Shown piece by piece: positions 39 to 24,783 of a DNA stretch of 33,171 nucleotides (positions within the stretch are counted from its first letter, which is position 1; each line of letters opens with the position of its first letter). Both the position numbers and the translations under genes were made by a program. Location of the stretch: assembly GCF_000157915.1 (NCBI RefSeq), contig NZ_EQ973632.1, positions 6,585 through 39,755 of the forward strand. Reading direction: 5' to 3'. Origin of the DNA: Phocaeicola coprophilus DSM 18228 = JCM 13818 (GTDB taxonomy: Bacteria; Bacteroidota; Bacteroidia; Bacteroidales; Bacteroidaceae). Under the pieces are notes generated by a model. That model ran no database searches. It had not been told where the DNA came from and was given only the letters and a program-made list of their open reading frames with translations.

Positions 39-53
39 ATTCAGATTTTCAAG

Positions 54-125
54 AGGTTCCTGGCGGATTCGAACCGCCGTACACGGTTTTGCAGACCGCT
101 GACTAAGCCACTCATCCAAGGAACC
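54..125 (-). tRNA. tRNA-Cys (GCA), copy 2 of the operon
   Basis: The minus strand folds as a complete 72-nt cloverleaf. Acceptor GGTTCCT pairs with AGGAACC, the anticodon loop carries GCA, the T-arm is GGCGG-TTCGAAT-CCGCC and the discriminator is T. CCA is not encoded. The sequence is identical to the copy exactly 100 bp upstream in the transcript. Confidence 0.95.
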
Positions 126-153
126 GGATTGTTTTGATTTATCAGTAAGTTGG

Positions 154-225
154 AGGTTCCTGGCGGATTCGAACCGCCGTACACGGTTTTGCAGACCGCT
201 GACTAAGCCACTCATCCAAGGAACC
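154..225 (-). tRNA. tRNA-Cys (GCA), copy 1 of the operon
   Basis: This is a complete 72-nt cloverleaf with GCA anticodon, identical base for base to the copy at 54-125. The 28-bp spacer between the copies differs from the flanks. It is the promoter-proximal gene of the tRNA operon, about 30 nt downstream of the expected transcription start. Confidence 0.95.
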
Positions 226-3145: not shown

Positions 3146-3790
3146 TTACTTGGAAGGATTCGGGAAGAATTTCTTCTTGTAGTAAGAATTGGCGGTATAG
3201 AGAGCTGCGGCCGGATTGTTTCCCGTAACTCTGTCTTTGGTGACCAGGGTAGTGACGTATACTTCGGAATATTTGTAGAACAGGCTGTCATGTCCCACGC
3301 AAAGTCCGATGACAACATTCAGATCAGTATGTGCTTCATTCAGCAAGCGTGCCTGTAAGATGGGGTTACACATGGAAGCTCCGATGCTTTCACATTGTGG
3401 AGGAATTCCCATGGAAGTCTTGCTTTGTCCGGCCACCTTGCAGATCACAGAATATGGCTCAAAGTTATTTGCGCGGAGAATCTGGGCAAAAATACGTGCT
3501 TCGTTGATGAGTCCGATGCAATTGGCTATTCCGATTTTGTGTGCATTGATCTTACGTGCAAATTCCATGATTTCCTGAACTCTTGTCCATTGGCAATATC
3601 CTTCATATTCCACTTCAGCACTGGCAATCATGATTTCCCGGTTTTTACCTTCGTCATATCGTTCCAGAGCCCATTGTCTGTCGTTTTTTTTCAAATGGGT
3701 TGTCGGACAGAAGGGAGGATAAGTGCGGTCCTTGAATTTGCAGTTTTGTGTTCCGCAGTCTACACAGGTGTGGGTTTGTTCTTTTTCCAT
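3146..3790 (-). CDS. DUF1847 family Cys-rich putative metal-binding protein
   Basis: This 214-residue soluble protein has an N-terminal cysteine motif CVDCGTQNC (C9, C12, C17), then C28, and further Cys at 66, 91, 117, 133, 141 and 164. The segments ANCIGLINEA, CKVAGQSK and GLCVGHDSLF match what I recall of the DUF1847 family, which is annotated as putative metal-binding without a known reaction. The frame stays open for 32 more codons upstream, but a promoter at 3823-3856 lies inside that extension, so I use the ATG at 3790, about 25 nt after the expected transcript start. It is monocistronic, with its own terminator. Being next to feoAB is suggestive of iron, but the two units have separate promoters. 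Confidence 0.82.
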   Translation of the reverse strand: MEKEQTHTCVDCGTQNCKFKDRTYPPFCPTTHLKKNDRQWALERYDEGKNREIMIASAEVEYEGYCQWTRVQEIMEFARKINAHKIGIANCIGLINEARIFAQILRANNFEPYSVICKVAGQSKTSMGIPPQCESIGASMCNPILQARLLNEAHTDLNVVIGLCVGHDSLFYKYSEVYVTTLVTKDRVTGNNPAAALYTANSYYKKKFFPNPSK

Positions 3791-3822
3791 TTTTTGTATG
3801 AATGATTGGTTGTTTCTTTGAA

Positions 3823-3856
3823 CAAAGGTATGTTTTTTTAGCTCAGGATAATCAAA
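3823..3856 (-). promoter_or_regulatory. Promoter of the DUF1847 gene
   Basis: The minus-strand -7 box TACCTTTG (3830 to 3823) and a full TTTG (3856 to 3853) are separated by 22 nt, slightly longer than usual. The site decides the start codon of the gene: upstream in-frame codons would not be transcribed. Confidence 0.7.
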
Positions 3857-4010
3857 TGAGAAGGATATTATCATTAAAAATTTCATCCGGTTTTATGGGA
3901 TTTCAAGTGCAGTTAACCGCGATTTCTCCAAAGATTTCTGTTAATGGAAGTTTATGGGTGTTTGTGAGTTCTTAAAACGTGTTATAAAATAGCGGTTTTT
4001 GCTGATTTTA

Positions 4011-4041
4011 TTTGCGGAATCCCCAAAAGTCCCTACCTTTG
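4011..4041 (+). promoter_or_regulatory. Promoter of a short non-coding transcript
   Basis: TTTG at 4011-4014, a 19-nt spacer and TACCTTTG at 4034-4041 make the best match to the Bacteroidetes consensus in the window. It points toward a terminator only about 60 bp away and not toward any protein gene on the plus strand. Confidence 0.8.
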
Positions 4042-4047
4042 CAATGT

Positions 4048-4109
4048 GTTTTTCATAGTATTAGATTTAAGGTTAACAAAGGTTGGAGTACAGCGGTACT
4101 CCTTTTTTT
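4048..4109 (+). ncRNA. Putative small RNA of about 60 nt
   Basis: A strong promoter ends at 4041 and an intrinsic terminator ends at 4109, so a transcript starting near 4048 would be about 62 nt. The body before the hairpin is about 37 nt of A/T-rich, apparently unstructured sequence (ending TTTAAGGTTAACAAAGGTTG). The 3' end is the terminator stem itself. There is no ATG-led frame of useful length. The layout, unpaired 5' region plus terminator hairpin, is that of a trans-acting small RNA. I believe close relatives of this leader occur at several sites in Bacteroides genomes (possibly the FopS paralogous sRNA family), but that is from memory. The exact 5' end is estimated. Confidence 0.65.
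4085..4109 (+). terminator. Intrinsic terminator of the small RNA
   Basis: GGAGTAC (4085-4091), loop AGCG and GTACTCC (4096-4102) form a perfect 7-bp stem, followed directly by seven T residues (4103-4109). Confidence 0.9.
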
Positions 4110-4136
4110 ATGTCCATACCCCAAGTTTCCGGGTAT

Positions 4137-4173
4137 AAAAAAAGGCTGTCCCACATTTCTGTGAAACAGCCTT
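4137..4173 (-). terminator. Intrinsic terminator of hsp20
   Basis: On the minus strand AAGGCTGT (4173 to 4166) pairs with ACAGCCTT (4149 to 4142) and a run of T residues follows (A run 4137-4143 on the plus strand). It sits 16 bp after the hsp20 stop codon and converges on the small RNA unit. Confidence 0.85.
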
Positions 4174-4188
4174 CTCAAATCAATCAGA

Positions 4189-4626
4189 TTAATGAATTTC
4201 GATAACACGATTAATCTTGGCCTTTTCCTCTGGAGTACGTTTAGGCAGATCAACGGTCAATACACCATCGGTGACATTTGCGCTGATTTTATCTTTTTCA
4301 ACATCGTCCGGAAGGACAAGTGCTTGTTCGAATTTGGAGTATGAGAATTCGCGACGCAAATATTTACGGTTGTTATTGTTTTCTTCTTTGGTCTCATTCT
4401 TCTTTTCCATACTGATGACCAGTTCGTTGTCTTCACTCAGATGAATGTTAAAGTCTTCCTTTGTCATACCTGGAGCGGCAACTTCTACCTTATAATCAGT
4501 ATCACTTTCCAGGACATTGATGGCCGGAGCTGTTGCATTGGCTTTTACCATCCAGTCGTTGTCGAAGAAATCATTGAAAATGCTCGGTAACCAATTCTGA
4601 TTGTAATTTTTTCTAATCGGTGTCAT
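4189..4626 (-). CDS. Small heat shock protein, Hsp20/alpha-crystallin family
   Basis: This 145-residue cytosolic holdase chaperone has a short N-terminal arm (1-31, with WLPSIFNDFF), the alpha-crystallin domain (about 32-128) containing APG at 51-53 and GVLTV at 121-125, and a C-terminal I-x-I motif (I142-E143-I144) used in oligomer assembly. Length and order are standard. The ATG at 4626 is preceded by a GGAG element about 9 nt upstream, unusual in this A/T-rich leader style and supportive of the start. The gene is monocistronic. No CIRCE element and no clear TAnnTTTG box is visible in the 200 bp upstream, so the heat control signal was not found. Confidence 0.95.
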   Translation of the reverse strand: MTPIRKNYNQNWLPSIFNDFFDNDWMVKANATAPAINVLESDTDYKVEVAAPGMTKEDFNIHLSEDNELVISMEKKNETKEENNNNRKYLRREFSYSKFEQALVLPDDVEKDKISANVTDGVLTVDLPKRTPEEKAKINRVIEIH

Positions 4627-4833
4627 AGTTGTAATCTCCTATATTTAGTTTTTTGTTTCTTGTTTCTGAACCTCTCAGCCTTCAGGGCTTTCGTGATTCG
4701 CCTAAGAATGTGCAAGATGTATGCCTGTTGTCAGTTTGTCAGAGAGTATGAACTCTTTTTTAAACGACTGAAAACTATTTTAATCAGAGGCACGGAGATT
4801 TTAAACTATTGAAAGCTTTATTGAAATAAAAGA

Positions 4834-24602: not shown

Positions 24603-24676
<74 letters not shown>

Positions 24677-24701
24677 CTTAAAGCTTTACAATCACAAGGA
24701 T

Positions 24702-24775
24702 GGTTCGGTAGCTCAGCTGGATAGAGCAACAGCCTTCTAAGCTGTGGGTCCCGAGTTCGAATCTCGGCCGAATCA
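24702..24775 (+). tRNA. tRNA-Arg (TCT), isodecoder 2
   Basis: Complete 74-nt cloverleaf: acceptor GGTTCGG/CCGAATC, anticodon arm ACAGC-CTTCTAA-GCTGT, T-arm CCGAG-TTCGAAT-CTCGG, discriminator A. It has the same anticodon as the gene 25 bp upstream, but pair-preserving changes in three stems. CCA is not encoded. Confidence 0.95.
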
Positions 24776-24783
24776 CTTAAGAA

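Follow-up and report, generated by a model that had tools for sequence, protein, structure and literature searches.

A FopS-family small-RNA gene of Phocaeicola coprophilus, in a genome without a detected RRM-1 protein, and FopS bodies in viral contigs

FopS is a multicopy family of small RNAs with 14 members in Bacteroides thetaiotaomicron (PMC11697453), which combine a σABfr-type promoter, a single-stranded R1' body and a Rho-independent terminator. Expression with a response to bile salts and the lack of the GibS R2 seed are further traits of the family. In the passages of PMC11697453 on mechanism, FopS-10 represses translation by antisense pairing at the start regions of susC-type mRNAs, compensatory mutations brought back target binding, and RbpB, a protein of the RRM-1 type, binds FopS and counteracts it. 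Its discussion takes the conservation of RRM-1 and FopS across the Bacteroidaceae to mean that the circuit is widespread; it is also the source for a likeness, by description, to the OmrA/B, Qrr and LhrC sibling sRNAs of other phyla, which like FopS are redundant paralogues that share targets. The same paper mentions one Caudovirales phage with FopS and proposes spread by phages. Two further described RNAs resemble FopS at the 5' end, namely GibS (RF04182; PMC7366714), with its R1 stretch, and, more weakly, BTnc231 (RF04180).

The window, the whole stretch of 33,171 nucleotides of Phocaeicola coprophilus analysed here, contains a compact unit that a sequence-only reading had proposed to encode a free small RNA with a single-stranded 5' body, possibly of a FopS-type paralogous family. 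The RF04319 (FopS) covariance model matches the unit over its full length (model positions 1–71 of 71; 78.2 bits, cut-off 56, E 4.6e-10), which bears out both proposals and is the strongest argument against a chance resemblance. By its sequence, the unit is a real, intact FopS gene; it is one more locus of an already described family and of low surprise in itself. It shares with the B. thetaiotaomicron system the promoter type, the single-stranded R1' body, the Rho-independent terminator and the multicopy state, and differs in species, in genomic place, in copy number (8 here, against the 12–15 quoted in PMC11697453) and in that its genome has no detected RRM-1 (RbpB-family) protein. The R1 stretch is common to the window copy and GibS, whereas the GibS model gives 47.5 bits, below its cut-off of 115, and the shorter window RNA, ending at its terminator, probably lacks the R2 seed, judging by length and score; the BTnc231 score of 30.9 bits is far under the cut-off of 80.4.

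The features of the locus are collected in Table 1, in which the R1/R1' seed assignment is taken from PMC11697453. The promoter (TTTG, 19 nt, TACCTTTG) and the terminator (7-bp stem, AGCG loop, seven T residues) were both found where the sequence-only reading had placed them, and the plus strand of the intergenic gap after FopS has, as it had stated, no protein gene, the next gene (Hsp20) being convergent and having its own terminator. Its estimate of a ~60-nt RNA holds as to a short RNA unit and falls slightly short in length, the predicted RNA being about 64–67 nt.

Table 1. Coordinates of the FopS locus and its neighbours, in window positions
Feature	Position	Strand	Basis or detail
Promoter, Bacteroidetes σABfr type	4011..4041	+	TTTG 4011-4014, 19 nt, TACCTTTG 4034-4041; by sequence
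FopS sRNA gene	4046..4112	+	RF04319 match, full length, 78.2 bits
Conserved single-stranded 5' body, nt 1-31, with R1/R1' seed	4046..4076	+	Alignment, fold, 68 copies
Intrinsic terminator	4085..4109	+	7-bp stem 4085-4091/4096-4102, AGCG loop 4092-4095, T7 4103-4109
Terminator of convergent hsp20 gene	about 4137..4173	-	Read from sequence
Hsp20-family chaperone gene, convergent neighbour, outside the sRNA unit	4189..4626	-	PF00011
DUF1847 gene, divergent neighbour	3146..3886	-	PF08901

The pattern TTTG-N18-20-TAnnTTTG has one exact occurrence per strand in the 33-kb window, and the minus-strand one, at 3490, lies inside the DUF1847 gene. The true start of that gene is probably near 3790, because its relatives match from about residue 30. 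A terminator scan of positions 3800–4700 returned three sites, compared with 0.8 ± 0.9 in shuffles; one of the three is the FopS hairpin and another is the same hairpin on the opposite strand. A σ70 promoter scan of the same region, with a model that does not cover σABfr-type promoters, gave one unrelated site, fewer than in shuffles. The whole-RNA fold is no better than that of shuffles (z −1.39), and in the predicted fold the terminator alone is structured while the body is single-stranded. Elsewhere, the window contains two tandem tRNA pairs, tRNA-Cys at 53-225 (minus strand) and tRNA-Arg(tct) at 24603-24776 (plus strand).

The genome (4.04 Mb, 73 contigs, 99.74% complete) holds eight FopS copies above the RF04319 cut-off, including a pair spaced by some 380 nt (C69:114734 and C69:115115). 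Inspection by eye places the −7 box TA[CT]CTTTG ahead of all eight and a TTG at the −33 place in seven; the stem GGAGTAC/GTACTCC, likewise by eye, is present in seven, one of which has a GGCG loop. One copy (L006) has a different stem and G at nt 12, and another (L008) has a body short of one T. The 11 of 19 RF04319 matches at E ≤ 10 that fall under the cut-off were taken as chance, except C69:124628, which is a GibS-like locus. That locus (L020, C69:124524-124658, minus strand) has the R1 stretch, scores 66.9 bits, under the GibS cut-off of 115, and lies about 10 kb from the tandem FopS pair.

Conservation was followed in 68 copies from 41 genomes, a non-random set chosen by score that consists of the eight own copies, the top 30 by score from the family search and 30 taken from the 94 matches that ten selected genus mates yielded. 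The 31-nt body is identical, bar A or G at nt 12, in 63 of the 68; the other five have an extra T (two copies), a final G (two) or one T missing (one). A fully paired stem and then T follows in all 68, in 13 stem-loop forms and about seven stem cores by count, a result on which it bears that the stem script seeks paired stems and permits G-T. FopS thus has a nearly constant body and an exchangeable terminator: the multiple copies, constant in body and covarying in stem, that the sequence-only reading had named as a sign of a family are present, and conservation restricted to the terminator stem, which it had named as a sign against one, is contradicted. At position 12 (window 4057) the family shows either A or G; in the 68-copy sample G occurs in none of 13 copies from RRM-1-bearing genomes and in 27 of 55 from RRM-less genomes, a restriction that may be a clade effect.

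The place of the window copy is not shared. No FopS lies beside Hsp20 at any of 80 other Hsp20 loci, some of which end within 400 nt of the Hsp20 gene, and among them only one from P. vulgatus (L162) has FopS, about 2.3 kb away; FopS is likewise absent at all 29 genus loci fetched for DUF1847, where Hsp20 is not adjacent either. The position of the window copy is therefore lineage-specific. The family itself is common: at E ≤ 1e-4 a FopS match is present in 275 of 301 Bacteroidaceae genomes, 235 of them above the cut-off, and in 158 of the 169 that are at least 90% complete, while none of the rows listed for one genus (g20) holds a match. In a class-wide sample it is found in 14 of 395 genomes, comprising seven family members, six further genomes of the order and a single one from beyond it, at 43.9 bits and so below the cut-off.

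The presumed protein partner is distributed differently. Neither PF00076 nor a 9-row RRM-domain profile has a match in the window's genome, in searches that a strongly diverged RRM, or one inside an assembly gap, could escape. Across the family, RRM_1 is found at E ≤ 0.01 in 50 of 301 genomes, compared with FopS in 275 of the same sample, and in 39 of the 169 genomes that are at least 90% complete. FopS is also present in 49 of the 50 RRM_1 genomes, the exception being G278 (lists compared by eye), and in 226 of the 301 FopS occurs with no RRM_1 match. All 21 sampled members of the genus carry FopS, in 3–14 copies, and four carry RRM_1; the RRM profile applied to 60 genus genomes gave 13 strong matches (E ≤ 2.6e-25) and three weak ones (E 0.04–0.08). 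Bodies do not differ between the 13 copies of seven RRM-bearing genomes and the 55 of 34 RRM-less ones, the nt-12 G excepted. The scarcity of RRM-1 in these genomes limits the idea of a widespread FopS–RbpB circuit, and, if this result holds, the FopS–RbpB picture would call for narrowing because most sampled genomes have FopS without a detectable RRM-1.

Pairing with susC-type mRNAs was assessed in the window's genome as duplex energy with FopS nt 1-31. A search with TIGR04056 gave 47 matches, 21 of them over the cut-off, and 18 start regions were used; three loci were left out (L032, whose open frame has no ATG; L040, which lacks its 5' part; and L043, a fragment), and in two (L028, L030) the sequence ahead of the start contains runs of N. 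The 18 regions average −13.5 kcal/mol and the control set, 263 genes taken from 400 kb of this genome, −11.1 kcal/mol (p 2e-4), with susC starts picked by hand and control starts set by rule. Relative to 200 shuffled seeds the z values are −1.34 and −0.22 respectively (p 2e-5), and against 184 more AT-rich controls, which average 69% AT compared with 74% for susC, p is 2e-5 for z and 1e-4 for energy. The signal is stronger with nt 1-21 alone (p 1.4e-5) than with nt 15-31 (p 0.03). Individually, shuffle p is at most 0.05 in just seven of the 18 regions and exceeds 0.3 in five, and the regions are not independent because they are paralogous. The highest-ranking regions in this pairing test are those of L030, L037, L025, L033 and L027. 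Near-perfect sites for nt 1-16 (ATACTATGAAAAACAC, up to three mismatches) show no genome-wide excess: there are 71, eight of which fall on the FopS and GibS loci, and 59 for a reversed control pattern. The pairing test thus appears to fit the known mechanism, short of proof. Three susC-type genes (L027, L029, L041) have in-frame stops in the match, and are errors or pseudogenes.

By analogy with B. thetaiotaomicron, the window FopS most likely pairs with susC-type start regions and blocks translation. Judging from the experiments in that species and from the pairing test, an RNA of about 65 nt would start near 4046, its unstructured 5' body would pair antisense over the start codons and their surroundings in mRNAs for polysaccharide utilisation, susC-type ones among them, and this pairing would shut out ribosome entry, with the redundant copies contributing dosage. 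Since no RRM-1 (RbpB-type) protein was detected, FopS here probably acts without such a partner. We consider it probable that the unit as a whole is such a gene, with an RNA that pairs with susC-type or other PUL mRNA starts, blocks ribosome entry and probably does so without an RRM-1 partner.

The constant body could instead be a site for RbpB or another protein, or an aid to termination, rather than a seed, so that the RNA titrates a protein or marks 3' ends. RbpB does bind FopS in B. thetaiotaomicron (PMC11697453), and in viral contigs, described below, a T-tailed hairpin follows the body in 36 of 43 cases regardless of the upstream context. A protein site is nonetheless hard to reconcile with RRM-1 in 50 and FopS in 275 of 301 family genomes, with a body unchanged in 34 RRM-less genomes and with the target binding regained by compensatory mutations in the B. 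thetaiotaomicron experiments (PMC11697453), and we regard this explanation as unlikely. It is still less likely that the window copy is silent and decaying, made superfluous by the seven others. In favour of this, its place is not conserved (FopS at 0 of 80 Hsp20 and 0 of 29 DUF1847 loci) and its paralogues are redundant; against it, promoter, body and terminator are all intact.

Least credible, to the point of being nearly negligible, is a short leader peptide in a GTG-initiated frame (VFFIVLDLRL...). That frame does stay open from nt 1 through the window copy; against it, there are no synonymous body changes among the 68 copies, the common change at nt 12 turns ATA into ATG, and the frame is not kept because the spacing after the body varies. 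Another frame offers a 4-codon ORF, MCFS, the ATG of which is lost in paralogues. The coding reading was rejected on the missing synonymous changes, the frame and the MCFS ATG, and sORFs were excluded at the B. thetaiotaomicron loci by the authors of PMC11697453. Antisense pairing at susC-type starts remains the preferred reading of the body.

FopS bodies also occur in viral sequences. Exact-pattern scans of IMG/VR returned 24, 34, 33 and 40 stretches, a union of 43 contigs (L163–L186, L311–L329) in which the identity of the body is partly given by construction and the surroundings are not. The full promoter pattern is present in 12, the −7 box only in nine and neither in 22; in 19 of these 22 an ORF of 60 aa or more ends 3–136 nt upstream of the body. 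In one contig (L321) a tRNA-Arg ends about 3 nt ahead of the body, and in two (L163, L182) tRNA-like stretches precede it by eye, uncalled by ARAGORN and Rfam. The T-tailed hairpins have many forms and are group-specific. Flank similarity sorts the 43 contigs into 19 groups, 13 of them promoter-less, and short flanks may hide links. A PHROGs scan of the proteins of 13 contigs gave a named phage function (terminase, portal, primase, integrase, exonuclease or helicase) in eight (L163, L169, L170, L175, L181, L182, L312, L318); in the other five (L168, L321, L322, L324, L328) matches were of unknown function or absent. The RF04319 cut-off is reached by four of the 19 promoter-less contigs scanned, so that most promoter-less viral bodies are FopS-like and not formal members.

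In a phage collection, four records match at E ≤ 1e-3. The induced temperate phage BX-TP2 (PQ571285) carries a whole FopS unit, promoter and terminator included, at 0.9 kb from the end of its record, and three unannotated faecal phage records also carry FopS bodies. Weak matches beyond the phages of Bacteroidales, in Microviridae, Cellulophaga and crAss-like cr124_1 (E 0.2 to 8), have no visible hairpin after the stretch, and the stretches in phi3:1, cr124_1 and Bog1249_12 are antisense to or abut annotated genes; all were taken as chance.

The viral bodies are identical and not complementary to FopS, which suggests mimics and not sponges, and the promoter-less ones are possible phage mimics of FopS. 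SusC-type and other TonB-dependent receptors are linked to Bacteroides phage susceptibility in passages of PMC8375218 and PMC12118408, and a phage RNA that silences SusC-type receptors could exclude rival phages. A full-text search for FopS together with phage found PMC11697453 alone, and one that combined Bacteroides phages and their SusC-type, TonB-dependent receptors with small RNAs found no literature. Together, the lack of a detected RRM-1 protein and the viral bodies go beyond the passages of PMC11697453 on these subjects, and lift the interest somewhat over that of the window copy itself.

A wider reading, which we put forward as speculative and doubtful, is that FopS is older and wider than the RbpB circuit and works without RRM-1 in most Bacteroidaceae. 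Many Bacteroidales phages would independently have taken up the exact body, often in the form of an RNA released from the 3' end of a gene or from a tRNA trailer, and would use it to silence SusC-type transporters of the host, whether for receptor silencing, for superinfection exclusion or for steering host metabolism. Should the RRM-1 result and the viral bodies hold up, the view of FopS–RbpB as one Bacteroidaceae-wide circuit would need narrowing, RRM-less Phocaeicola would be a natural system in which to study sRNAs that act without a chaperone or with a different helper, and phages whose 3' ends carry the FopS body would be speaking the sRNA language of their hosts.
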